A DNA stretch of 64,000 nucleotides, from contig QCXZ01000075.1 of assembly GCA_025024175.1 (NCBI GenBank), positions 3,844,001 through 3,908,000 on the forward strand, in the 5' to 3' direction. Positions 21,362-61,551 of the stretch are shown here, one piece after another; the first letter of the stretch is position 1; each line of letters opens with the position of its first letter. Under the pieces are notes generated by a model, which searched no databases, was not told where the DNA came from, and worked only from the letters and a program-made list of their open reading frames with translations. A program made the position numbers and the translations under genes. Source of the stretch: Rhyzopertha dominica (Eukaryota > Arthropoda > Insecta > Coleoptera > Bostrichidae).

Positions 21362-23855
21362 TTGACTAATTTATTTATTTATTTATATACAGAAGCACAA
21401 ACAGGACGAACCTAAAACAGTGCTTACAACTTTTTCAAAAATGAAATTAACATATTATAGAATAAACCACACCGCAAAACAGAAATTATTAAAATGAAAA
21501 ATTAATACCTAATTAACACCTAATTTACGATTATAACATTATATAAGAAGTAAACTACCAAAATACGAAAGGAAACGGAAGAATTTATTGGTGGAGCACT
21601 TTAAAAAATTTTCTCCGAAATGAGTATACAGAATCACTAAATATATCAACTTCAAGTGGTGGATTAGTTGGCCTGCTTAATGAATTGTAGGACTTCATAC
21701 ATCTAAGAAGTGGAGAGTTTGCATATGCACTGGTACGTAAAACAAATTATGAGACCTAGTGTTATACACAGAAGGCACCGAAATATTCAACATACTCAAA
21801 ATAACTGTCGAGTCCACTGCACCACTGCAAATGCTGTGCAGATAACGAAGATCTGCAAAACTTCGTCGCTGCTCCTGAGGCAGCATGCGAAAGTGTTCAC
21901 GTATAAGATCAGTACTCTGCAGATATATACGAAGTTTATAAGCAACATATCTAACAAATTTGTTCTCAATCCTTTCAAGACTATTAATGTACACAATATA
22001 TTGGGGATTCCAAATAACCGAAGCATAGTTCAGAATACTATTAACATAAGCCATGAACAAAGAATTAAAAGATTTCCATTTTCTAAATTCAGAACAAACT
22101 CTAAAAATAAATCCTAGACTATTATTTGCCTTCCTTACGATATCGGAAATATGTTCACTAAATAACACCTTTGAATCAAATACAACACCCAAGTCTCTAA
22201 GTGAATTTACCCTATTCAACAAGTTACTGTTTATACTATAATCAAATTTTATAATGCTCTTATTCCTGGTAAAAGATATCGTGCAACATTTATCAATGTT
22301 AAAAAAAAGGCAGTACGATTTCAGCCTTTCAATATCCTCCTGGAGAAGCTTGCAATTGTCTATAGATGAAATACAACGATAGATTTTTAAATCATCGGCA
22401 TACATTAAAAAATTTGAATGTTTGAAACAATTGGAAATGTCATTTATATAGATATTAAACAACAAAGGACCTAGATGTGATCCTTAAGGAACACCCGAAG
22501 TTAATTCCACTTGATCACACTTAACCCTACCAATCTTCACAAACTGACTCCTATCAAACAAATATGATTCAAACCACGCAAGAAGAGAATCACACACTCC
22601 AATGTCTTCCAATTTATTAAGCATTATAAAATGATCAATTTTGTCAAACGCTTTGCTGAAGTCAGTGTAAATGCTATCAACCTGTTGTTGATTGTCCATT
22701 TGTTGTAATAAAAATTCTGTGGACACAAACAAATTAGAAACCACTGAGCGTCCACTCATGAATCCGTGTTGAGAAGGACAAATCAGAAATTTTACGTGGA
22801 AGAGGACATTATCGTATATGATTCAAAAATTTTAGCAAAAATACACAGCTTTGACACTGGGCGGTAACTAGCAACAAAACTCCGATTGCCTGATTTAAAG
22901 ATAGGTGAAACCGCAGCAGTTTTCCAGATTCTAGGAAAGACACCTTCTCCTAATGATTTATTGAAAATTATCTGAAGAGGAGTCAAGAGATCCATGCATT
23001 CCTTTATGAAAATGACTGGTATCATATCAAGGCCTATTCCCTGTTTTGAAAGAGCTTGTACTTTTTTCTTAATATCGTCCGCAGTTATTGAGGGAACACA
23101 TACATAATTATTTGTAGCCAATCGAGATGAACTCTTGCGATAAACGGGATTCGAGTCAACAAATACGGATGAAAAGTACCTCGAAAAACACTGACTTATA
23201 TCAAAATAACTAAATGCTGCACCATTACAATCATTCATAACAGTAGGAATGCCGATACATGCTTTTCGTTTATTATATGCAAACGACCAGAATTGTTTTG
23301 GCTCCACGCCAATTTTTCTTTCAACAGTTTCAATATAATTTCTATAGTCATTGTTAATGAGATACTTGCCCCGTCCTCTAAGTATTTTAAAAGTTAAGTA
23401 GTCCATCTTATTACCATATCTTTTCCAAAGACTGTGGTATTTCTTCTTTTCTTTAAGTGTTCTAATGATCATTTTTGAGAACCAGCTCTGATAACAGCAG
23501 GATTTTCTAACGCTCCGCGGTACATATTTATCAAATAAACTATACAGTACAGAATAAAGTTTTTGAAGTGACTTATTTGTGTCCAATGATTGGAACTCAC
23601 TATGCCAATCTATTTCGTTCATGTTATTATTAATGGCATTATAATCAGCAAACTTAAAGTTAAATGATGGGCTATAGGTTTTACGCATAAAAATCGTTGT
23701 ATTAACATGTAATTCAAATTCAAGAGCACCATGAAGTTCATCCACAGGGCACAACGGAAAATCAGATTTAAATAAATTGCGAACAATAAAGAAATTACTT
23801 AAAACTAAGTCCAGAGAGTTATTTGACAAATTTACAAAGCTATTATATTGCAGCA
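21362..23855 (-). mobile_element. 5'-truncated non-LTR retrotransposon (jockey/I-like LINE)
   Basis: A ~2.5-kb LINE on the minus strand. Its 3' end is a short TAAA-type tail (complement of the ATTTATTTATTTATTTATAT run at 21369-21388). The host transposon sequence is duplicated as AGGGT on the minus strand (ACCCT at 21357-21361 and 23856-23860 on the plus strand). It is truncated inside ORF2, so ORF1 and most of the endonuclease domain are missing. The duplication is short for a LINE, so the exact ends are provisional. Confidence 0.8.
21695..23840 (-). pseudogene. LINE ORF2: endonuclease tail and reverse transcriptase, broken
   Basis: Three minus-strand frames cover one ORF2. The first (23886-22792) carries the end of the endonuclease (NNSLDLVLSN, a His-rich segment) and the start of the reverse transcriptase (WKTAAVSPIFKSGNRSFVAS). 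The second (22759-22484) carries DFSKAFDKIDH and ends at SGVP, where a TAA stop replaces the expected Gln codon before GSHLGPL. The third (22465-21695) carries LLFNIYINDIS, then the catalytic MYADDLKIY and the thumb and connector region to LHFLDV. A frameshift near 22790 and the in-frame stop near 22483 inactivate it. The family is close to jockey/I-type LINEs by motif order; clade assignment needs a tree. Confidence 0.82.
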
Positions 23856-35400: not shown

Positions 35401-37124
35401 TATTTTTAAATGGACTTTACTGACCTAGATCTAGATGGAATGTAAATATAACGTTCATTTGTTTGACACCTGATATCACCTGATATTGTTTCATCAACAT
35501 TATACGACCTACCATTTGCCTTTTGATTGCAGGTCGCCCTGAAAACTACTTAATGGACATGCCAATCATAGCCAACTACCTCCAATTCACCGAAACCAAT
35601 TGGAAATACAAAACAGAACCCAGCGGGCGATTCTGCATGGGCATGGACAACGGCCAATGCAATTTTCCGCGTGGTAAGGTCATCGGCGGCTCAAGCGTCC
35701 TAAACTACATGATCTACACTCGAGGAAACCGAAGGGACTACGATAACTGGGCCAGAATGGGCAACACCGGGTGGTCCTACAAAGAAGTGATGCCGTACTT
35801 CAAGAAGATCGAAAACTTCTCGATTCCGGAGTTGTTTGATCCGCATTATCACAGTAGAGATGGGTATTTGAATGTAGAGTATGCTCCGTTCCGTACCAAG
35901 ATTGGAGAAGCCATAGTGGATGCGGGTATTCAAAATGGATTGAAGTATGTTGATTATAATGGTGCCGTCCAGACTGGGATCTCGTTTCTGCAAGTTAGTA
36001 TGAAAGATGGCGTTAGGGAGAGCTCCAGCAGGGCGTATTTGCATCCAATTAAGGACAGACCTAATCTTCATGTGAAGAAGTTGTCGATGGTTAAGAAGAT
36101 TTTGATAGATCCGATTACGAAGGCAGCGTACGGAGTTGAATTTGTACGAGGGGGGGTTACAACTAGTATTAGAGCGAGAAAAGAAGTGATCATATCAGCT
36201 GGTGCCATCAATTCCCCACAGCTGCTCATGCTTTCCGGTATTGGCCCTAAAAAGCACCTCCAGCAGCTTGGTATTCCTCTCTTGAAGAACGCAAAGGTTG
36301 GATATAACTTAATGGACCATATCGCTTTGGGAGGGCTTACATTTATAATTGATAAACCATACTCTCTCAGAACTGACAGTATCATCAACACCAAAAACTT
36401 GATAGACTACTTTAGCCATCACAGAGGACCATTATCTATACCGGGGGGCTGCGAGGTTTTGTCGTTCCACGATTTAGAACACCCAAACGATCCTGATGGT
36501 TATCCAGACATGGAACTGCTATTCCAGGGAGGCTCGATTGTATCAGATCCCCTCCTCTACAAAGATTTTGGAATAACTGACTCCTTATTCGATGCAGTAT
36601 ACAAACCTATCAATAACGCCGAGACATTCATGGTATTCCCAATGCTCATGCGACCAAAGAGCAAAGGTCGGATAATGCTCAAAGGCAGCGACTACCGCTC
36701 AAAACCATCCATCTTCCCCAATTATTTCGCCGACTCAAGTGACATGAAAACCATCCTGGGTGGAGTCAAGCTCATTTTAAACATCACGAGTCAACCAGCC
36801 CTGAAGAAGTTGGGGACTAGGCTACACGACATCCCCATTCCTCAATGCAGAGACTTCCCCTTCGCCAGTGACGATTATTTCAATTGCATGGCAAGGCATT
36901 TCACTTTCACCATCTACCACCAGAGTGGTACCTGCAAGATGGGGCCAGCTGGTGACAAAACAGCTGTCGTGGACCCACGATTACGTGTTCACGGAATTAG
37001 GAACTTGAGGGTCATAGATGCTTCTGTTATTCCCGAGATCCCGGCAGCTCACACTAACGCCCCTACGTTTATGATTGCAGAAAAGGGCGCGGATATGATC
37101 AAGGAAGACTGGGGATGGTATTGA
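29494..37124 (+). CDS. GMC oxidoreductase, glucose dehydrogenase (FAD, quinone)-like
   Basis: Two coding exons, 29494-29743 and 35533-37124. The donor is GCAG|GTAGGG, the acceptor TTGATTGCAG|GT, and one Gly codon is split in phase 1. The product is 613 aa, normal for insect glucose dehydrogenases. ATG 29494 was chosen because MTKLFGCLLFFLGLVHLG is a signal peptide, pointing to secretion. FAD-binding VVGAGTA(X)C is at residues ~56-64 (one base, 29680, is undetermined; Gly expected at 63), with the ribose-binding Glu at 82. GMC signature 1 (GKVIGGSSVLNYMIYTRGN) starts at ~131. Signature 2 (SAGAINSPQLLMLSG) is at ~305-319. The catalytic pair is His546 (YHQSGTCKMG) and His590 (AAHTNAPTF). The family oxidises sugars or alcohols and passes electrons from FAD to a quinone or other acceptor. 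In insects members act in cuticle modification, immunity or reproduction. The exact substrate cannot be read from sequence. The intron contains transposons; the coding exons are undamaged. Confidence 0.93.
29875..31855 (-). mobile_element. Mariner-like element with ~400-bp inverted repeats, in the GMC intron
   Basis: Left arm ~29875-30290 and right arm ~31511-31855 are inverted copies. Matching blocks are CAAATGAATTCCAACTCGTT (29950) with AACGAGTTGGAATTCATTTG (31762-31781), and AACGCATTTATTGTTTTAAA (30237) with TTTAAACAATAAATGCGTTT-like sequence (31543-31565). The outer limits are eroded and no target duplication was fixed. A minus-strand transposase remnant lies between the arms. It sits in an intron, antisense to the host gene. 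Confidence 0.75.
30540..31474 (-). pseudogene. Mariner-like transposase remnant in the long-TIR element
   Basis: Minus-strand frames 31474-31262, 31237-31001 and 30905-30636 carry pieces of one transposase. They are an N-terminal HTH piece (SVRRIETETRVSKSSASRVL), then the catalytic segment MWFQQDGVPMHNSQTVQNYL (second Asp), then CCPPRSPDVTPLHVFLWG. The last catalytic Asp (LDF in relatives) is His here. The spacing, 41 residues, is the same as in the DD41D copies, but the sequence is far more diverged. Several frameshifts and stops separate the pieces, so it is long dead. Confidence 0.75.
32240..33080 (-). pseudogene. Ancient mariner-like transposase remnant
   Basis: On the minus strand, WTDESNFAHL (first Asp region, near 32665-32695) is followed by MLFQQDGAPALNSATVIRYL (second Asp, 32465-32525). 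Then comes RRIGTGHINSYKSVHLTPIS (near 32270-32330), a heavily mutated match to the ..GPINWPPRSPDLTPLD.. segment of mariner relatives. Stops and frame changes are frequent. No terminal repeats found. It lies in the GMC intron. Confidence 0.6.
33081..35532 (+). other. Remainder of the GMC intron, nothing recognised
   Basis: AT-rich intronic sequence ending in the acceptor at 35531-35532. No further transposase, repeat or RNA gene was recognised. Confidence 0.45.
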
Positions 37125-43681: not shown

Positions 43682-46600
43682 ATGCAGAAATCGGTAAGTA
43701 TAGCGCATGAAAAGATTTTCTTACTGTTTTTCGTTAAAAAAAGCATGAGGGATGTTTTGGTTATTTTAATTACAATTTCCCTTTTTTTATTTGCTACTTT
43801 CTTAGGTGGTCGGCATTAGCACTAGAAATCTTGCACGATGTTAACTGAAATATTTTTCTTTATCCACAAATTTGTTATGAGAACGTTACTATGGGACTCA
43901 TTTGTGTTGAAGCATGAACCCCATTAGACCACTAGTGGTTAGTTAGTTAAGTTCTTTATTAACATACATTATTTTACACATAAAAGTACTACAATGAGTC
44001 TATATTAAAAAAAAATTTTTTTCTAAACGCAACTACACTGTATGACATCTTAATCTCTTCGGGTAAGTTACTAAACATTCTAATGCCATCAACAAAAAGT
44101 GATTTCTGCTTGACAGATGTTTACACCTAACTATTTCTTAAGTTATATTCAAACAATTGTCCTTTCCTAACTATAAATCCATCTAAGTACGCAGCTGAGC
44201 ACTAACAATTTCTCTATCTAACATTTTACTAATCTTTTTATTTTCACTACAATTTTGTTTATCGTATTTTCAACGTTATAAATAAAGACCCTGTAAAACT
44301 CATCAACATCAATCACAGTATTATTCCACTTGCTCGATAACAATTCTTTTCTAACTTCACCCAACCTGGTGTAATGTTCAATCTTTGTCAAATTTTATTA
44401 AAACAAAAAAATGCGCATTAATAGGTACTTTTTAATCAAATAATGATATGAATTATGATAAATATGGAATATACTTTTTTACAGTTTATAAAATTAATGG
44501 CAGGTGAAGTCTCAATTATGGGTAATGAGATTTAAAATCTAAAATCNTGGTAAAAAAATGCTGAAAGCAGTTGTATCTTATTGTTTCCAAATGAAGTATC
44601 AATGTAACCCTTACATACAACATTCATTAACATTTTGTTATTAATAGCTTTGCTCCAGTATCTGAGTATTCTTGAGCAAGTTGACAATCTTCTTTGGCAT
44701 TGTACTAGGTGTTTTTATACCAGCGAGAAGCTTTACACAATTATAACCTTTGTAACCGACGAAAATCTATTAAACATCCTCTTTATTGATACTCTGGAAT
44801 TCCTTGCCCTGCTTTCCCCTAAGTGTTTTTTCAAAAAAGCAATTATACGATTATGTTTACTAATACCAAAATTTTCCCAATACAAATATGAATCGCTTAT
44901 GAAAATTTTCATACTTAGCTTGTGGCGTGTTTGGCATACGTGAAGATTACAATGTCTAAAGCAGCTCCTTCAGTTTCCAAATCAAGTATTATCACTTATG
45001 CACGATTAGTACCAAAAAAGGTTGACATCTAAAAATTGTTTAAAACAACTTTGGGTGGCTGCCATAAGCCCTTCCAGCCCTTTTATTTTATTATTTTGCC
45101 TTTTTCATACAGTCATTATGAAACGTAAATTGAATTTTTTAATCTCAAATCTGAGGAAACATCGCTTGGATTTTTTAGAGCTTTTTGGATTACGTACATG
45201 TAACTAAAGCTTCCTAAAAGGTTTAAGAAGTAGAGTTGCTTACGAAAGAGTATGTGCCTTGCAAATTTTTAGAGATTCAAACATTGTAACATGCTGCTAA
45301 CATTGAAATGGAACCATAAAATAATTAAGTTGTAAAACGACTGAGGAATATTGCTTAATAATTTAGCAATTTTATATTATGGTCAAGCTAATCAAGAAAT
45401 TTATACCCGCTACAATTTGGAACATTTTATACGTAGGAAATTTTATTAATTTGTTCAGCAAACAACGCATATCAAAAACATCGGAGCAGTAAATAATTTT
45501 CTCTCAAATAATTACAACGAATACCGTCTTCTAGCATCACAATTTACTCTTGTTTTAATACCCTGGTTCCTGTCTCAATACAATTGTATATTCATTTAAT
45601 CAGTATTTTCTCACTTTTATTAAATACAGCATTTCGTTGCAGATAATCGTCTTGGCTTTAGTCCTGCTGGCTGCGCATGCAGCTCCTCCAGTGTTTCCAA
45701 ATCTTCATATACTAAAAACCACACTACCGATCTCTGCCACGACAACTCTAGAACCAGATGAAGATATTCAAGCAATCACCCAGACAAGGACACAAGCTCC
45801 CTTGGATGTGACCGCTGCTAAGAAGTTGTTAAATGAAGCAGAACTTCTCCAAAACAAGAATGCAAAGTGAGTAAAATTCAGCAGGAAGCACAATTTACCA
45901 TAACCATGACCCAGGGTCATTAAATACATTTAGCTCGGATGTAAAGACCAAAATTCTGCATTCGGTGTCTCAGTATGCTTTTTGACGAAGATTACATTTG
46001 TTAAATGATACATTATTATTCAAATCACACATTCCAAAGACAAAATTGCCATTTACACATCAAGATTTGTGAACGAAGCTATTCTTTTAATGTTACGAAG
46101 TTTCTACGACCAATTATTTCTCACCAGCATCAGTAAAGAATCTCATCCATTTTACGTTAACGACGTATCAAACAGAAAGTAAATTTATTCGAGTTTAGAC
46201 ACAATACATTTTTCAGTGACTCGTAAATAAGTCGATAACCTTGAATTTTTATTACTTAATGGGACTTCTTTAATGATTCTATTTTTATACAGACAGGTTG
46301 GGTTGGGCATTCACGTTGAGCCGTAAGAGGTTTCATATTCAACTTGAGGGCCAACAATCTTTATGGCAACTATGAATACCAGCTACAATAGTATTAAAAT
46401 TAATCAATCTATTTTCTGCTTCAGCAATCATAATTTTTTCGAGTGGACAGATACCACGATTTCAGCTTATTTCCATAATCTACGAAAAATATTCAATTGA
46501 AATAAATCATCTGCTCTGGGCAATCTACTCCCATCCTACGACCGGTTTCGCCCTGTTGGGGCTCATCAGAGTTCTTTTGTTTTACACAGTCACATTTCTT

Positions 46601-49600
46601 CTATTTTATTACTAACAGTTTCCACTTAATTTCGTCTAGTGCGTGTTAATATTTTACCTTCCAGTCAATTTGTCAAATATGGATGTGGACTTTGAATGAT
46701 ACCAACCATTTCTTTTCCTAATTTTACGACACTCAACTGCAGACTGCTGTAAAACTTTTAGCCTGCCAGGTGGTTGTACGCATTACAGGACCGTACTTGC
46801 AATCTTTCAACCATTACATTTAATTTTAAGGAATAAATAAACTCAAAATAAAATAATAAATAAAAAAGCATGTACTATTTATTTTTTAAAGTATCATTTT
46901 TGAAAATTAGATTTTAGTCACTTAAAAAAGTCACTGTCATCATATGTTCCATCACTGTCGCCAAGTCGATTTATTAACTAGAACAACCCAAGATATTATG
47001 GGCTAGTTTCTCTTGTCTTTATTAAAGTTGATGTTAGCTAAAATCAACCCCGTAAATTGGGGTATGTGATTGGTTTAGATTTTAAATACAGAATTGATTT
47101 TATCTTAAAATAGAGAAGAGGAACCGGCCCAATGTGTCTTTTTAGTACTCGCCGTGTTAATATAGAGGGTGTTGCAAATTAATGGGTCATCCCGTTAACC
47201 CTAAATTCTTGAGGAGATTATATGACGATTTTGTTATTGGTGAGTTTCTGAAAAACGCTTCATTTAAAAAATACAAGCTGCCATAGATGATTTTTGAAAA
47301 TCGTTTTTTTACGATATAATCCAGTTTTGGGGGCATCGAGTTGAAATTCGTTACAAGTCTGTAGTATTTATATCTAACTGCACCCCTAAATTATTGTTAA
47401 CATTACTATAAAAACAAATGAATACCTGGAGAGTTTGTAACTTTCTAACCCCCCCCCCGCAACTTTTTGTGACGTACGCCCATGAGACCAGCGAATTTTT
47501 TTTCTAGTACAAATCTTCATTGTCAGTTTTTTTGGTCTCTTGTAATTTTTAGACAAAATGGTTAGATTCAGAGATAAACGCCGTTTTGTGAAACTTTCCA
47601 CCTTGCCTATTAGTAATAAATGTTTAAATCCAAATTATTGCCCAAATTATGTATTTTTTTAAACATTTATTACTAATAGGCAAGGTGGAAAGTTTCACAA
47701 AACGGCGTTTATCTCTGAATCTAACCATTTTGTCTAAAAATTACAAGAGACCAAAAAACTGACAATGAAGATTTGTACTAGAAAAAAAATTCGCTGGTCT
47801 CATGGGCGTACGTCAAAAAAAAATTGTGGGCGATAGAAAGTTACAAACCTCCCGATATTCATTTGTCTTTAAAGTAATGTTAACAATAATTTAGGAGTAT
47901 ACTTAGATGTAAATACTACAAACTCGTACCAAATTTCTCCATACCTCCAAAACTGGATTATATCCTAAAAACGATTTAAAGTTTCAACTTTGACACCATG
48001 TATTTTTTAAATGAAACGTATTTCAGAAGTTTACTAATAACAATCTCGTCATATTTTGGCCTCAAGAATCTAATGCTAACGGGATGACTTACACCCTATA
48101 TATGTAAGAAATTTATTTTTACATTCAACGGTTTACTTCTTTATTACATACAGGCATTATAAACGTTCTTTCAGATATCAGTTTGCTACTGACGTTGAAG
48201 ATCACATTAGCGACCTCACACAACAAAGGGAAGAAGTGCGAGATGGTTTAGCTGTTAAAGGAATGTATTCCTACAGTGATGGATACGTCAAGAGAACAGT
48301 TCATTATGTTGCTGACGATAAGGGATACCGTGTAGTAAGGTAATATATTATTATATTATATATAATAATGTATATTATTATTTCAAAAAATTGTTACAAT
48401 GACTGTCAAGACTGCAGACTTATATTATGTGTCTTTATATACGAGGCATGTTTTTTAAGTAAGTACCGTTTTGCGATTCCGCCGCCGCAGCGCTACGGTC
48501 GGCGTTCCGCGTATGCGCGCTGGTTACCTACATCTATTGTCTACGCACTGACGCCATTACAGTTTGATTCTTCATTGTATACGTTGTTTACTCAGTGTTT
48601 AAGATGCCTCCGACAATCGTGAGTCCCGCCGATTGTGAAGTACGGGCTGTTATACGATTTCTTAGTGCTAAAGGCGTAAAACCGATCGATATTCATCGTG
48701 AGATCTGTGAAGTTTACGGACAAAACATTATGATTGATGGAATGGTAAGGAAATGGGTGAGAGCATTTAAAGATGGCCGCACATATATGCATGATGAAGA
48801 ACGGAGTGGGCGTCCTTCGGTCGTTAATGAAGATTTGGTGCAGAAAGTGAACGAAACGGTGAGAGAAAACAGACGCTTTACAATTTCATCATTGTGCGAC
48901 TGCTTTCCTCAATATTCTCGTAGTGTTTTGTATCGCATTGTGACCGAGAACTTGAATTACCGGAAATTGTGTTCACGTTGGGTTCCAAAAATGTTGACGG
49001 ATTTGCACAAAACCCAACGTTTAGGGAGTGCATTGACCTTCCTTGAGCGGTACCACAATAAAGGTGAAGATTTTTTAGACCAAATTGTTACTGGTGACGA
49101 AACGTGGGTGGCCTACGTCACACCAGAATCGAAACAACAATCCATGGAATGGCGACATTCATCATCACCCAAAAAAAGTGAAGTTTAAGCAAACAATTTC
49201 TGCCCGGAAAATCATGTGCACAGTTTTTTGGGACAGAAAAGGAGTATTGCTAGTGGAGTTTCCGCCTCGTAATGAGATAATCAATGCAGCGTCTTATTGT
49301 AAGACATTGAACAATCTGCGTCGTGCAATCCAGAACAAAAGACGTGGCAAGTTGAGTAAGGGTATCGTTTTGCTGCATGACAATGCCCGTCCACATGTGG
49401 CTAATCGGACCACAGATCTCATCAAATCTTTTAAATGGGAAACTCTAGATCATCCTCCATACAGCCCTGATCTGGCGCCCAGCGACTACCATTTGTTCCT
49501 GCACTTGAAGAAACACCTGGGTGGTCAGCGTCTTCAAGACGATAACGAAGTCGAAACATTTATGATACAGTGGTTAACAAGTCAGGCGGCAGAATTTTAT

Positions 49601-56000: not shown

Positions 56001-59000
56001 TCTTTGCCCAATTAATTTTAGCAATAGGTTTCAATATAGTTTGTTATATGGACTGTTCTCAAGGTCAGTGATTCTTTCGAGTTTATGCAGTATCACAATT
56101 TTATTTCCCTTTACAACTTTCAGATAAAAGTATTTTTTATGCTCGATACTTATAATGATGTCATGATTTTCTGTTTTCCAAAGTTTTACTCCCTATTATA
56201 ATATTGCATGCGCTTCTAATAGTGTGACGGAATATTTAATGACAGCTACGATCTTGGATACTGTTAGATTTCTAAAATGTAAATTAAAGTTCTTTTTAAA
56301 TATCTCTGAAGCTTTTCAATGACTATAGCAGCCACTCTGGTTCGCCACCTTCTTTAATTCGTAACTGCAGGAAGAAGGAACGCTTTTAATTTTTTATCAC
56401 TTGAAGGTTACAGAAAAGAAATTCGGAATTTTATGAAAATATGACCTTACGCATGTTATGGTTAAAAGACAACCATTCCGAATATTCAACATCACTTAAA
56501 CCCTTGACAATGTTTAAATGAAATAGATACTTCTCTAAAATGCATGTCTATGCTGTGCTGTCTACACCTCAACCAACTGCAGATAGTACTATTTCGCTGT
56601 CATTACAGCTCATCAGTGCAGTTTAGGTCTAGTGTAGACAACACGGCAGTTGCATGCCAATTTTTCAGGCTACAGGTCACTTCCTTTAGGAAGTAGTTCC
56701 GGTTAAGGCAGCTAGGCGGCTTTGTCATCATGTCAGTGTAATGCTGACAGATGGCATTGCCATCCTAAATTCTTACTTTACATACTTCTCTACTTCATAT
56801 TAGCTACGCGATAATATAGTACAGTGAGTAGAATAACATCCATAACACAATCAAACTTGTTTAAATAAACTATAAACTGCACATTTATAACTGATTATAG
56901 TTTTAATTTGAGGTTTGTTTACCAGGTAACAGTTTTTACCACAATTTTCAGGCTCAAAAAGTCTGTTTTACTCATATTAACATATTAAGGGTTACACGAA
57001 AATGCAAGATAACCATCAAGCACTACAAATTCTAATTTCGATCTAGGTTTCTACCACGGCTACTACAACTACAGTCGCACCACCGCTGGATCTTTCTCCA
57101 CTTACTCAAGCTCCAAGTTACGGTCAGTATTATCAGTACTTGCCTCCAAAAACTATATTCATTCGTATCCCCAACGAATATACGACAGAACCCAATACTA
57201 GGTCATCACTGATAAACTTCAATGAACAACCAATCCAGGCATCAGATGCAGGCCTTTTCGTCAAGCTGCACGACAATAATGGGTCAGGTGAGACTTGATA
57301 TTTATTTTATACTATTTACTACTTGAATTTAAAGCACTGGTCGCTGAAGTCACGAGTAGTTAAATTATTACAGGCCAAATTTAAGTTCGCTGGTCCACAT
57401 CAAATGCCTTGCGTATTCCCACAAAAAAAACAATCCAGAGAAATCAACTGATGACTCACTGATAGGGATTCATCAAGTCAAGCAGATTGATATTTCTCTA
57501 AACTGCTTGAAAAAAACGTATAGTTGAAAAATTAAAGTTTGACTTGACTTGATTTTGCCACTACTACATTTTCAAGCAGCATGATGCTTGATGGCAGCGC
57601 AAGTAAATACCGCGAGTTGTAACATACCGATATTGACAGAATTTTGCCGAGTTATTACAGCAGTCAATAACGTTTATATACCCTTTATCTACCTACCTAG
57701 TTAATTAGTCATTAAATAAATGCTAGTGACTATATGGCTCACTACATTCACTTATTAATAAGCATACACGCAGAAAGCTCTCAAACTATTCTTTAAACAA
57801 TGTAATTCAAAAATATCATTAACCGTCGATGGTTGGTCGTCTTTTAACATGAAATGGTTTTACGGAATAATTACACATTTCATAGATAAGAAGTGGAAAC
57901 TGCACTCGCTTCTTTTAGATTTTGTTCTGGCGCATGGCCAGTACAGTGGTGTCTCCATAGCAAAGTTATTTTCAGATGTAGTTAATTTATATGTTGTGGC
58001 AGATTCTGTACAAGGAGTTAACACAACACAAATAGTAATTTGACGTTCATAAATGAACTTAAGAATTTTATTCATATGTACTATCGATCCCAAAAGCTGT
58101 CATTTTGGGGGTTTTGCATATATAATTAATTTGGAGACGAGAGACTTCATGGAGGTTCTTCATTCTGGATTTGATTGTTCTGAAAATATTTTGATTTAAG
58201 AAAGCGAGGATGAAAATACAATTAAAGTAACTAATTCGTCAGTTAAAAAAATTCATGGTATCTCAACTAAGCTAAAAAATTCTGAACACTTACGCAAAGA
58301 TTTTGAACCATATTGCAAGACTATGAATTTAAAAATGATGATACCAAAAACTGATGTCATAACACGGTGGAACTCAACGTTTGAAATGCTTGAGTGAAGC
58401 CTAAAATGAAATGCGCACTGAATGTATTATGTGATAATACACAATATGAAAACTTTAAAGTTATTGGACGCTAAATGGTCTCTGCTAGAGTGAGTGTGCC
58501 AGAATCTTAAAGAGTTTCAAAACCATTTCTACTAATTTAGAGGGTGAAACCTATTGCACAATTCCGATGGTAATTATTGCTATAAATATGTTTTTGGACA
58601 AATTAGAGATTTACGATAAGAAGCCCGAAAGAAATAAAATCGACGAAAAATTAATAAATAGTATTCAGTCGGCAAGATTCAATATTATAAGACACTATAA
58701 AAAGGCAAATTGGATGTATTGTTTTGTGTTAATGTTAGACCCACGGCATAAGATAGATACATTTTCGTATACACAATTAGGGAAAGCTTTAGAAACAGAA
58801 GCAGTTTCCCATTTTGAAATTATATTTACAAATAAATATTTTCAGCATGAAAAGAGATTCAAGCAATAGAGGAGTTTAATATAGATATTTCCAGTTTGTT
58901 TAGAAAATCTCTTATTAATGAAGACAATGAATTGTCTTGGCGTTACGAAATAGATAAATATATGGTACAAATATCCCATGAGCTGATTTTTCTGAAAATA

Positions 59001-61551
59001 TTCTATAGTGGTATAAAAACCACGACGACATATTTCCTAACCTTGCCTTAATCACAAAAGACTTTTTGTCAATACCTGCCACGTCTACGCCTGTAGAAAA
59101 AGAATTTTCTAAGGCTCCATTAAATATTATAGTAAAGACACTTTCGTTGTCACCTAATAAAATTTTATGGCAAGTCATAGTCAAAGTTATAGATAGCTGG
59201 AGTAAACGAGCAAATTTCTTGGAAATATATTAAGAAGAAAGTCTTATTCAGTGGTCGGTAGGTATTATCAGTTTAGTTTCGTTCAGTTAAGTTTGTGATC
59301 TCAAGCAGAAGTGTTACCAGTGAATCAAAATGGCTTTTTTGGCGCCCAGTAGATTTTGACAAAATGTCCGTAGTTGTAGAACAATCTGCATCTACTAGTG
59401 ATAGAAGTGGTGGTGACGATGTAGTTTGTGTCAATTAAACGAAGGACTAGAACAATCAACCATTACTCGTGGATCCAGCAACGACGTAATTGATGTAAGT
59501 TCCGAATCAGAGTGTGATGAAAATACGGTGCACAATAAACGAGGAAAAATTTAAAACACTCCACTTCGAGGGACTGCAGAATTATTAAAAATAAAGTACT
59601 CCACTGTAAAGAAAGTCGTCGTTAAAAGGCAATACAAAAAAATGAATTTTGCACCCGAAAATTTAAAAAGATAACATATGCAATGAAAGAGGCTATAGTT
59701 TCAAAAATATATGAAGCATACTCCAAAAATATGGTTCCAACTGTAAAGTCAGTATTGGAAGAGTTATTGGACGCGGAATCGAAATCCCCTACAGACTGAC
59801 CCATTTTCGGAATCTAAGTTTAATTATTAATTATTAAGTTTCATTAATTTTATTTTTATTACTTGTAGCAACTACTTCGAACCATTAGATTTTCACTTCA
59901 AAAATTAAATCGAAGACGTTACATAACGGAATCGGACAACAAAAGTATCTTTACTATACATAATCTCGGAGTAGATTAAGCGACAAGTTATAATACTGGT
60001 TGTAAGTTTAAGCATATCACAAAAGGATTTTTTAAGAACGTTGTTTATTTTATTGTTTCGCCGTTGTGCTGATTATGATTCAATAAATCAAGTAGTATCA
60101 AGCCGGTTTTTTCAAGTACTTGGCGTATTAACTGCTTGACTTGAGCTTGACTTAACGTTCAAATTACTTGACTTGATTTCAAGTCAATGCAGGTCAAGCA
60201 CTGAGCCCATATAGCATACCACACCGTGCATTTTTATGATTGCAGTAGCTTGTGAAGTATTATTTTTAGGTTATCTTGGCTCTAAATGCAACAGTTTTGT
60301 TTGTCGGCGTAACCATGTGTAGTGAAGTGTAAACTTGCATTCGACTTACATCTCTCTCATCATACAGATGAAACTATAACTATCCACGGCCACTAAATTT
60401 CAATTTTTATACCAGCTGATTCTCATGAGGCCTTAAACGAATTTGCGAAAAGTCTTGACCAAAAGTTTTGGTGATGATTGTTGCTTTGTTCTTTGTTATG
60501 CATGACCCACTTTTGGCATAAATAAAACTGTCCATTGCGATAAAACGTTATGGTAATATCGGCATTTTGTTTACAGATAGTGCTACAACTTCACTACCAC
60601 TACCATCTTCTAATGAATACCACCACACAGACGTCGACCGACCTGCACATATAGGTTTAAAATTACCACAAATTCCTGCACCAAAATATCCTGTAAACAA
60701 GGAGGAAAACCCCGAAACAGCTGAAAAATACGCTGAATATCCTTACATAGGTACAAAGTCGGTTATATTGCCAACGACATTCAGACCGAAACCATTACAA
60801 AAGATTGTCGACTCAACAAACGTTTCGCCAACAGCCAAAGACTATGAAAGTAACCCTTACATAAACAACAAGATCAGAATTCGAATTCCTACAACAGATA
60901 GACCTACAAATCTCGACAACTTAGACATCCTTAAAACAAATCCTTACTTGTTGGTCAAAGCTGCTGATGGAAGTTCCACCAAACATATTCCAAACAGGGA
61001 AGTTTTGGCGGCACCAGAACTTGAGGAACAATCACTTTTAGCATCCAACAGAACCGGGAGGAGATTGGAAGATCAGATTTTTAAAGAGCAAGCCGCCAAT
61101 GCTAAATATGAGTTCGCCAGTGANATAGTTGACAATATTAATGGACAAGAACATCAAAGACAAGAAGTACGGAATGGTGTGGATGTAAAGGGGAAATATT
61201 CGTATAGCGATGGATATGTGAGAAGGACGGTACATTATGAAGCGGATGACAAAGGATACAGAATTGTCAAGTAAGTCAAAACCCTATTGTTTCAAAAAAA
61301 TCTGCTGGAAACCACTTTACTAAGTTCGATCCAGTAATAAATACAAACAATCATTCACTCTTCTTTTCAGGGAGCAAGCTGAAGTTCTTGATGGTCCGGT
61401 CTACAACCCTAACGGTGAGGCCAAAGTATCTACGATAGTAGCAGGAAACAAAGTAGACTATTCGGTGACCCAACATGATTTTATTGGAAGAAAACTCACT
61501 GAAGAATTCGACAAGATACAGAAAGAAAAAGAGCAAGAAAGATTTATTTGA
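53084..61551 (+). CDS. Cuticular protein with RR chitin-binding domain, gene 2
   Basis: Five coding exons rebuilt by splice sites and phase: 53084-53192, 53251-53426, 57047-57287, 60577-61270, 61371-61551; 466 aa. Exon 3 has no ATG of its own and is supported by an open frame of 80 codons with correct phase at both ends. MFRLLLRVLLVAALSTAQ is a signal peptide. Residues 37-95 hold an acidic/basic stretch (LIDEAIPELPRPRKLFK). Exon 3 opens with a Thr-rich run (VSTTATTTTVAPP). Residues ~176-350 are Pro/Thr-rich with imperfect repeats (YPYIGTK..PTTFRPKP, NPYINNK..PTTDRP, NPYLLVK). The RR domain is at ~353-406: KYEFAS, then VKGKYSYSDGYVRRTVHYEA, then DDKGYRIV. The tail KEQAEVLDGPVYNPNGEAKV follows. 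Base 61124 is undetermined. It is expected to be secreted and chitin-binding in cuticle. The phase-2 intron right after the RR core matches gene 1. Introns 2 and 3 are full of transposons. Confidence 0.88.
53650..54925 (-). pseudogene. LINE ORF2 fragment (reverse transcriptase to C-terminus) in cuticle gene 2 intron 2
   Basis: Going down the minus strand: LDFFKAFDTIDHCLL, then SGVPQGSVLGPLLFLIY, then QYYADDSQLQFSLN (catalytic YADD), then the thumb and C-terminal region ending LPENAFVTPIPKAVEENF. Frame changes occur near 54360 and 54140. It is 5'-truncated within the reverse transcriptase. Motif order is like that of the LINE at 21362-23855, but the sequence is clearly different, so it is another family. 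Confidence 0.75.
54945..56560 (-). pseudogene. Penelope-like element, decayed reverse transcriptase and GIY-YIG
   Basis: Downstream of the hammerhead on the minus strand, weak but ordered matches appear. The segment near 55450-55660 reads ETQYFPCIWRR, then FLSQK, then SIKFRVEKEK. This fits the Penelope-like RT pattern (W.RYVDD.., then IKFT.E.E). Near 55065-55095 the strand reads CGRCYIVQTKRNGSTRLKK, like the YIG..T.R....R...H part of GIY-YIG. At ~54945-55065 it reads KLQQICKYSVAEYSFV, then FDKTKIY, parallel to LQQIYKSWVAEHSYL..FDKTKIL at 13307-13549. Many stops interrupt it. The identification rests on the combination of these segments with the ribozyme. Confidence 0.55.
56560..56639 (-). ncRNA. 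Hammerhead self-cleaving ribozyme (type I, palindromic stem III)
   Basis: Reading the minus strand 5' to 3': outer stem I GTCTACAC (56639-56632), an internal loop, inner stem I AACTGCA (56623-56617), core CTGATGA (56616-56610), stem II GCTGT-AATG-ACAGC (56609-56596), core GAA (56595-56593), stem III ATAGTACTAT (56592-56583, self-complementary), C17 at 56582. The 3' side of stem I then follows: TGCAGTT (56581-56575) and, after a loop, GTGTAGAC (56567-56560). All seven inner and eight outer stem I pairs are Watson-Crick, as are the five of stem II and the A15.1-U16.1 pair. Every invariant core base is present. Predicted cleavage is between 56582 and 56581. A palindromic stem III suggests activity as a dimer, as known for some Penelope-like and satellite hammerheads. 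It lies at the 5' side of a decayed Penelope-like element, antisense within intron 2 of cuticle gene 2. Confidence 0.9.
57817..59235 (+). pseudogene. hAT transposase, decayed
   Basis: SLTVDGWSSFNMKWFYGIIT (57817 on) is the hAT catalytic start (the Asp of VDGW), followed by KWKLHSLLLDFV. It continues with IPKTDVITRWNSTFEML (near 58335-58395, the RWNSTF motif), then NKIDEKLINSIQSARFNIIR and LMLDPRHKIDTFSYTQL (58730-58785). The dimerisation domain comes last: YFPNLALITKDFLSIPATST, then PVEKEF (59030-59110). Stops and frame changes occur near 58040, 58200, 58395 and 58867. Family by motif is hAT; it is inactive. Confidence 0.85.
59525..59800 (+). pseudogene. HTH fragment, probably from another mariner-like transposase
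   Basis: The + strand reads TPLRGTAELLKIKYSTVKKV, then KITYAMKEAIVSKIYEAYSK and VPTVKSVLEELLDAESKSPT. The order (HTH with S-TV-K-V, then an I..IY..Y......PT...L...L segment) is like the N-terminal part of some insect mariner-superfamily transposases. It ends at a TGA near 59799. It lies within the hAT element area, so it is nested or an adjoining older insertion. Confidence 0.4.

Follow-up and report, generated by a model that had tools for sequence, protein, structure and literature searches.

The closest described systems are the metazoan non-LTR retrozymes, which in the main text of Cervera and de la Pena (2020, PMC7229834) carry a type I hammerhead ribozyme (HHR) in short units of low GC content, occur in many copies and in tandem, and have target-site duplications (TSDs) of more than 4 bp; RNA circles and cleavage have been demonstrated for them, whereas the family described here is known from its sequence. 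Insects are named in the same text as holding retrozyme-type repeats, and its section 17 names Penelope-like elements (PLEs), and also LINEs, as possible helpers. The PLEs (Penelope/Poseidon) are the second system of interest. For the PLE PAc, cutting and extension of both strands are described; it starts from a pair of internal RNA sites, which set the limits of the genomic tail, and RNA that has not been cleaved is inserted in vitro (PMC11167929). Penelope copies of Adineta, in the part of the account that deals with them, show TSDs, pLTRs placed head-to-head and, on one of the inverted pLTRs, a tail, self-priming on an antisense template being the favoured origin of such copies (PMC3846280). 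The movement of animal retrozymes and the insertion of PLEs are not settled. Here we describe a retrozyme and PLEs of one genome that carry the same unusual signature. In both, the arms stand head-to-head, each of two fixed start sites holds one outer end, and the TSDs resemble each other.

The retrozyme was found through a hammerhead motif in the window, by which we mean the whole 64-kb stretch of Rhyzopertha dominica DNA that was analysed. Reading the minus strand directly, we found the core, the 7 pairs of inner stem I and the 5 pairs of stem II as an earlier note on this DNA had claimed them, and the strand and the predicted cut site agree as well (Table 1). Outer stem I, for which the note had given 8 pairs, is also present, but it has 13 pairs, one of them a G.U (pairs are from the L010 copy, to which the window letters are identical). 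The features of a type I hammerhead are all there, that is, a CUGANGA...GAAA core, three stems of which stem I is the open one, and an NUH cut site; both an internal loop in stem I and the loop AATG are present in addition. Stem III had rightly been called palindromic, since ATAGTACTAT is self-complementary; it would form 3 pairs with a GUAC loop in the monomer and 10 pairs in a dimer, so that a dimer could form. In its short self-complementary stem III this ribozyme resembles the minimal PLE hammerheads that cleave as dimers, for which Lunse et al. (2017) and Cervera (2014) are cited in reviews, but differs from that minimal type in that its stem III allows the 3-pair hairpin and its long stem I contains an internal loop.

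Table 1. Positions of the hammerhead, of the insertion that holds it and of the neighbouring cuticle-protein segment, numbered along the window
Feature	Position	Strand	Basis
Whole hammerhead: inner stem I, core, stem II, stem III	56575..56623	-	read directly; descriptor match
Stretch named in the earlier note, includes the hammerhead	56560..56639	-	read directly
Hammerhead extent including outer stem I (56644-56632 pairs with 56567-56555)	56555..56644	-	pairs on H module; RNA fold
Inner stem I, 5' strand, AACTGCA	56623-56617	-	read directly
Core, CTGATGA	56616-56610	-	read directly
Stem II, GCTGT and ACAGC, loop AATG	56609-56605 and 56600-56596	-	read directly
GAA	56595-56593	-	read directly
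Stem III, ATAGTACTAT	56592-56583	-	read directly
C17; predicted cut between 56582 and 56581	56582	-	
Inner stem I, 3' strand, TGCAGTT	56581-56575	-	read directly
TSD on the side of the ribozyme arm, 14 bp, 1 mismatch	56524..56537	.	direct-repeat search
TSD, other copy, 14 bp	56779..56792	.	direct-repeat search
Whole retrozyme insertion, 241 bp, two arms head-to-head	56538..56778	.	TSD bounds; L009 module map
Minus arm, ending outward at alpha: module H plus the final bases of module C	56538..56648	-	L009 1937-2049, H109..C44
Arm junction, 3-nt microhomology common to both arms	56646..56648	.	L009 segments overlap 2047-2049
Plus arm: module A; outer end at beta	56646..56778	+	L009 2047-2180, A1..C2
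Chitin_bind_4 open segment (insect cuticle protein), context only	60522..61274	+	Pfam

That the motif would hardly arise by chance, as had been stated, is borne out by a descriptor requiring at least 4 pairs in stem II, at least 3 in stem III and at least 4 in stem I, which gave a single match in the window, at this hammerhead, and 1 match in 136.8 Mb of simulated first-order sequence (both strands), corresponding to 0.0005 per 64 kb. The fold of the 101-nt RNA has a z of -6.35 against 200 shuffles, and the single minimum free energy structure retains stems I and II with the core pairs shifted. On the other hand, the covariance-model hit expected in the note was not obtained: an Rfam scan of the hammerhead returned nothing reaching gathering level, the best match being Hammerhead_HH9 at 28 bits versus a gathering score of 52 (span 56562-56632; E = 5.1e-5 when 401 bp were scanned and 0.0081 when the whole window was). 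The stem pairs are conserved in other genomic copies, as had been anticipated, with 97.0% of 497 cells paired across 18 distinct copies of the ribozyme module; changes in the stems are few because the copies are young, and the two double compensatory changes both come from the divergent copy L021. In that copy the centre of stem III reads GATC in place of GTAC, so the palindrome is retained, as a dimeric helix would require, and it is broken in L020 and in one copy of L011 (all by eye). Taken together, the motif is confirmed, as far as its letters can tell, as a complete type I hammerhead that looks real; from it we infer self-cleavage and a circular template.

The earlier note placed the ribozyme inside a cuticle-gene intron, antisense to the gene. 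The orientation is correct, and the intron is likely, given the plus-strand Chitin_bind_4 segment on one side and a signal-peptide-like open segment (45559-45870, +), in which Pfam found no match and which we took by eye as an earlier exon, on the other; this location is incidental, however, as the hammerhead belongs to a transposable element. The amniote HH9 hammerhead is conserved and has a host role. A domesticated intronic ribozyme of that kind, acting on the cuticle gene, would fit the intact appearance of the HHR, its place between presumed exons and its best Rfam match, and yet we regard it as extremely unlikely, for the HHR is antisense to the gene and sits in an insertion that is bounded by a TSD and has near-identical copies elsewhere. 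The resemblance to HH9 (Rfam RF02275) consists in the type I fold and the best covariance match, while the element here scores only 28 of the required 52 bits and is mobile, multicopy and antisense. Any action of the window hammerhead would be confined to transcripts of the opposite strand to that of the cuticle gene; since it is antisense to that gene and within a repeat, we propose no host-gene role for it.

The informative part, which the earlier note missed, is the insertion structure of the family. The hammerhead is one arm of a TSD-flanked retroelement insertion and does not belong to the cuticle gene. At this locus (L009, C75:3898600-3902600), the two arms meet head-to-head, and the last two bases of the minus arm as mapped overlap the TSD. 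Using the unit of another copy, L010, which consists of modules C (47), H (110), B (63) and A (132), 352 bp in total with a GC content of 0.43, we searched the genome (479 Mb, 138 contigs) and obtained 1431 first-look candidates, 40 of which were scored and yielded 138 matches; the full-length matches among these 40 were, L010 itself apart, 96-99% identical to the L010 unit. A TATA-like box, TATATAAG, was noticed by eye in module C and is a putative promoter element. Direct tandems occur: of 82 segments, 52 are longer than one unit and 17 longer than two, the longest being the 1747 nt of L065, all in a single orientation. We left segments shorter than 60 nt out of these counts and the selection counts below, those shorter than 100 nt out of the comparison of outer with inner turns, and those shorter than 150 nt out of the permutation. 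With a type I HHR, repeat units within about 170-400 bp, low GC content, multiple copies and TSDs of more than 4 bp (36/49 copies at a score of at least 9), the family is, judged on these features, a young 352-bp non-LTR retrozyme, and an abundant one if the 1431 first-look candidates are the guide. A unit of 352 bp is too short to encode a reverse transcriptase and a GIY-YIG endonuclease, and the element must therefore be non-autonomous and not itself a PLE member.

In contrast to the metazoan non-LTR retrozymes as described in the main text of PMC7229834, where the word "inverted" does not occur, most mapped copies here are head-to-head, with two arms and two fixed outer ends. We mapped 49 loci: 13 from a search with a 121-bp query, which were picked by junction words and are biased to one junction type, and 36 further places from the L010-unit search, which are the best-scoring of the 1431 candidates and are biased to long, well-matching copies. 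Repeated loci were counted once (for example, L022 is L010; L023, L024, L026 and L027 are L065). Both orientations are present in 42 of the 49 insertions and a single one in 7. A plain minus-then-plus order, in the sense of the HHR, is found in 37/42, so that the RNA 3' sides face outward; the other five (L031, L049, L056, L068 and L070) either have a more complex structure or were divided by the aligner. Counted separately from this order, 37/42 have one outer end at alpha (H107-B14, mostly H110/B1, the end of module H) and the other at beta (A128-C9, mostly A130-C2, the end of module A). The remaining five comprise two alpha-alpha copies (L012 and L049), no beta-beta copy, and three with an end elsewhere (L029, L061 and L068). 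With equal odds, at least 37 alpha-beta copies among 39 have a probability of 1.4e-9, a value that assumes independence, which is not wholly true because some copies share one junction (L015/L016/L018/L019; L030/L037; L012/L020; and L009/L010/L021 at A1). In our literature search, mostly outside subscription journals, we found no earlier description of a head-to-head retrozyme or of the alpha/beta rule, and we do not claim priority.

TSDs of 12-15 bp surround most copies. At a score of at least 9 they were found around 35 of the 37 alpha-beta copies, versus 5 of 513 random placements, and were lacking at this threshold around 13 of all 49; the two alpha-beta copies below it are L014 and L047, and L014 has a 13-bp repeat with 1 mismatch when its ends are set by hand. 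Since the TSDs lie around both arms jointly, the arms arrived together. This bears on another account of the inverted structure, in which it arises by self-priming on antisense RNA or DNA or by a later rearrangement, with gene conversion making the arms alike. Self-priming is the published explanation for head-to-head Penelope copies, at least in the part of PMC3846280 concerned with them, and module H is itself a long hairpin; moreover, conversion would also give the arms common variants. Against it stand the TSDs around both arms in 35/37, a second arm that starts at the fixed beta rather than at a palindrome, and junctions that are varied and of short microhomology. We therefore regard this account as quite unlikely.

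The inner junctions of the 36-locus set are indeed varied, with an overlap of 1-6 nt in 22 of 25. Inner ends lie within 3 nt of the HHR cut in 4 of 50 cases, against about 1 expected from position alone. We rejected run-off at an HHR-cleaved 5' end as their cause, given that two of the four ends are one shared junction and TG/CTG microhomology occurs at the sites. The inner ends show no accumulation at the cut, which makes circles or unprocessed multimers more probable as templates than linear monomers that had been cut. Two further candidates were discarded. A fixed RNA 5' end at the C/H boundary (C44-C47/H1; H6-H8 in L021 and L014) was put down to query bias, because the 121-bp query gave 13 candidates with common words skipped, so that junction words probably chose the copies, and because junctions are diverse in the 36-locus set. 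A match start that recurs at query position 303 falls exactly 50 bases beyond the full unit and appears to be a flank artefact. As a separate observation, L015, L016, L018 and L019, and likewise L030 and L037, are independent insertions, as their flanking repeats differ, yet their arm junction is exactly identical; such copies may be chimeras that were re-mobilised, or the junctions may be microhomology hot spots.

The same architecture is found in the PLEs of this genome. A profile search for GIY-YIG (PF01541) gave 144 matches from 150 of 2080 candidates scored; among these matches there are 21 neighbouring pairs within 6 kb, 20 of them minus-plus, 1 minus-minus and 0 plus-minus. One locus, L072, has an 864-codon open frame overlapping two 648-bp direct repeats (pLTRs) and a 146-bp inverted part. 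Although Pfam assigned no family to this frame at 1e-3 (only ZapA, E = 0.24), its locus scored 33.5 bits for GIY-YIG in the genome profile search, and many of its 95 protein relatives (27-48% identical) have RVT_1 and some GIY-YIG among their precomputed domains. We compared ten PLE insertions, namely, L072 as a tandem locus and nine picked as minus-plus pairs, for which the inversion itself was thus selected but the one-of-each rule was not. In all ten, alpha' (638-655) holds one end and beta' (680-688) the other. Their flanking direct repeats are 13-18 bp with 0-2 mismatches as aligned, with exact repeats of 13 bp in L072 and 12 bp in L073. Head-to-head copies, TSDs and two start sites bounding a tail are also what is described for PAc (PMC11167929) and, in the relevant part of its account, for Adineta Penelope (PMC3846280). 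The spacing of the two sites differs, at 195 nt for alpha-beta in the retrozyme (module B plus module A) versus about 37-39 nt in the PLEs. The retrozyme unit has no sequence match to the PLE loci L072 and L073, so the link between the two rests on architecture. Rfam detected no hammerhead in L072 (E up to 5) or in L073-L081 (E up to 1); by eye, the L072 pLTR retains a stem and, after it, GAAACGTC, which resembles the 3' half of a minimal hammerhead, but it lacks the CUGANGA half.

On the strength of this architecture, we consider it probable, at roughly 0.78, that the family is a non-autonomous retrozyme moved by PLE-type machinery, with reverse transcription primed on both strands of the target. 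The unit RNA would be transcribed, and the HHR would cut it to monomers that could be closed into circles, or the RNA would stay multimeric; Penelope-like machinery, with its reverse transcriptase and GIY-YIG endonuclease, would then use this RNA. Both strands of a staggered target cut would serve as primers, one starting reverse transcription at alpha and the other at beta, each giving a cDNA of variable length, often longer than one unit, and the inner cDNA ends would be joined via a few nucleotides of microhomology. The window copy would then be a short product, with one A arm, one H arm and one intact-looking HHR. PLEs have already been proposed in print as retrozyme helpers, in the section of PMC7229834 mentioned above; the present copies add a genomic footprint. 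If correct, two-site priming would also be a simple account of the inverted pLTRs and tail of Penelope copies, and a 352-bp element with two defined start sites would be a convenient in vitro substrate.

Mobilisation by a LINE has to be weighed against PLE-type priming at this point. In the twin priming of L1, priming by the second target strand takes place within the RNA, and the second cDNA starts at variable internal places. Were a LINE to mobilise the retrozyme in this way, inverted arms joined by microhomology would result, and inverted arms, microhomology junctions and long TSDs are all seen in the copies; in addition, the window holds a LINE-type RVT_1 remnant, and LINEs stand beside PLEs in the list of possible helpers in that section. 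Yet in 37/42 inverted copies both outer ends are at fixed RNA positions, one of each, and 10/10 PLEs of the same genome follow the one-of-each rule, in a comparison of ends that covered retrozyme and PLE copies. We therefore think a LINE unlikely as the mobiliser.

Whether the two arms of an insertion come from one source can be judged from private variants, that is, bases departing from the family majority. The two arms of an insertion have 159 of 353 variants in common (0.45 of the union); for successive turns the figure is 166 of 468 (0.35), and between insertions it is 2356 of 63392 (0.04). When segment labels were permuted 200 times with fragments of at least 150 nt, the observed 132/267 exceeded the permuted ratios (mean 0.045, maximum 0.145). 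In L064 the same four variants recur in six full or near-full turns across both arms, and L066 and L062 are similar. Such sharing fits one circle copied from two primers, and it fits equally well two reads of one multimeric transcript or one source locus; gene conversion between arms could imitate it too. The outermost C-H stretch at alpha behaves differently, with 127/9340 differences from the inner turns, against 35/8039 among inner turns and 20827/925872 between insertions. In L028 it shows 5 differences in each of three comparisons while the inner turns agree, and in L034 it differs from the inner turns at 28/145 positions. These differences, notably in L028 and L034, count against a single template; it is as if the first stretch had come from another template. 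A more specific version of PLE-type priming, a two-ended rolling-circle target-primed reverse transcription in which the HHR would make the circle, a PLE dimer would copy this one circular RNA from alpha and beta for a variable number of turns, and microhomology would join the inner ends, is put forward here as a tentative proposal with rather less than even odds.

The variants also suggest that the HHR is under selection, its core and stems having 2 template-level variants in 1343 element-positions versus 86 in 10665 elsewhere (Fisher p = 0.0035); on a stricter count, 3 of 49 distinct variants fall there (p = 0.15), and a second region (starts 206-223) is no more variable.

Several other features of the window deserve mention. 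In the same presumed intron as the hammerhead, a second hammerhead-like core at 46546-46569 (-) consists of CTGATGA, a stem, GAAA, the palindrome ACCGGT and C; by eye it has no pairing stem I, and it resembles a relic of a minimal PLE-type hammerhead. The segment 41954-42046 (+) is 73% identical over 94 bp to retrozyme module A, with no H module behind it by eye, and is perhaps a relic of an older related family. A long near-perfect hairpin at 47574-47712 (-) matches Rfam MIR9471 at 61 bits, far under the gathering score of 150, and is more likely a palindromic transposon than a microRNA. There are also a Mos1-type transposase domain, HTH_48, at 48568-49188 (+), the remnant of a LINE-type reverse transcriptase (RVT_1) at 21695-22483 (-), and, by eye, transposase-like open segments elsewhere. 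Finally, a GMC oxidoreductase segment at 35520-37124 has its best named matches in the beetles Tenebrio molitor (77%) and Cryptolaemus montrouzieri (74%), together with an unnamed match at 100%.
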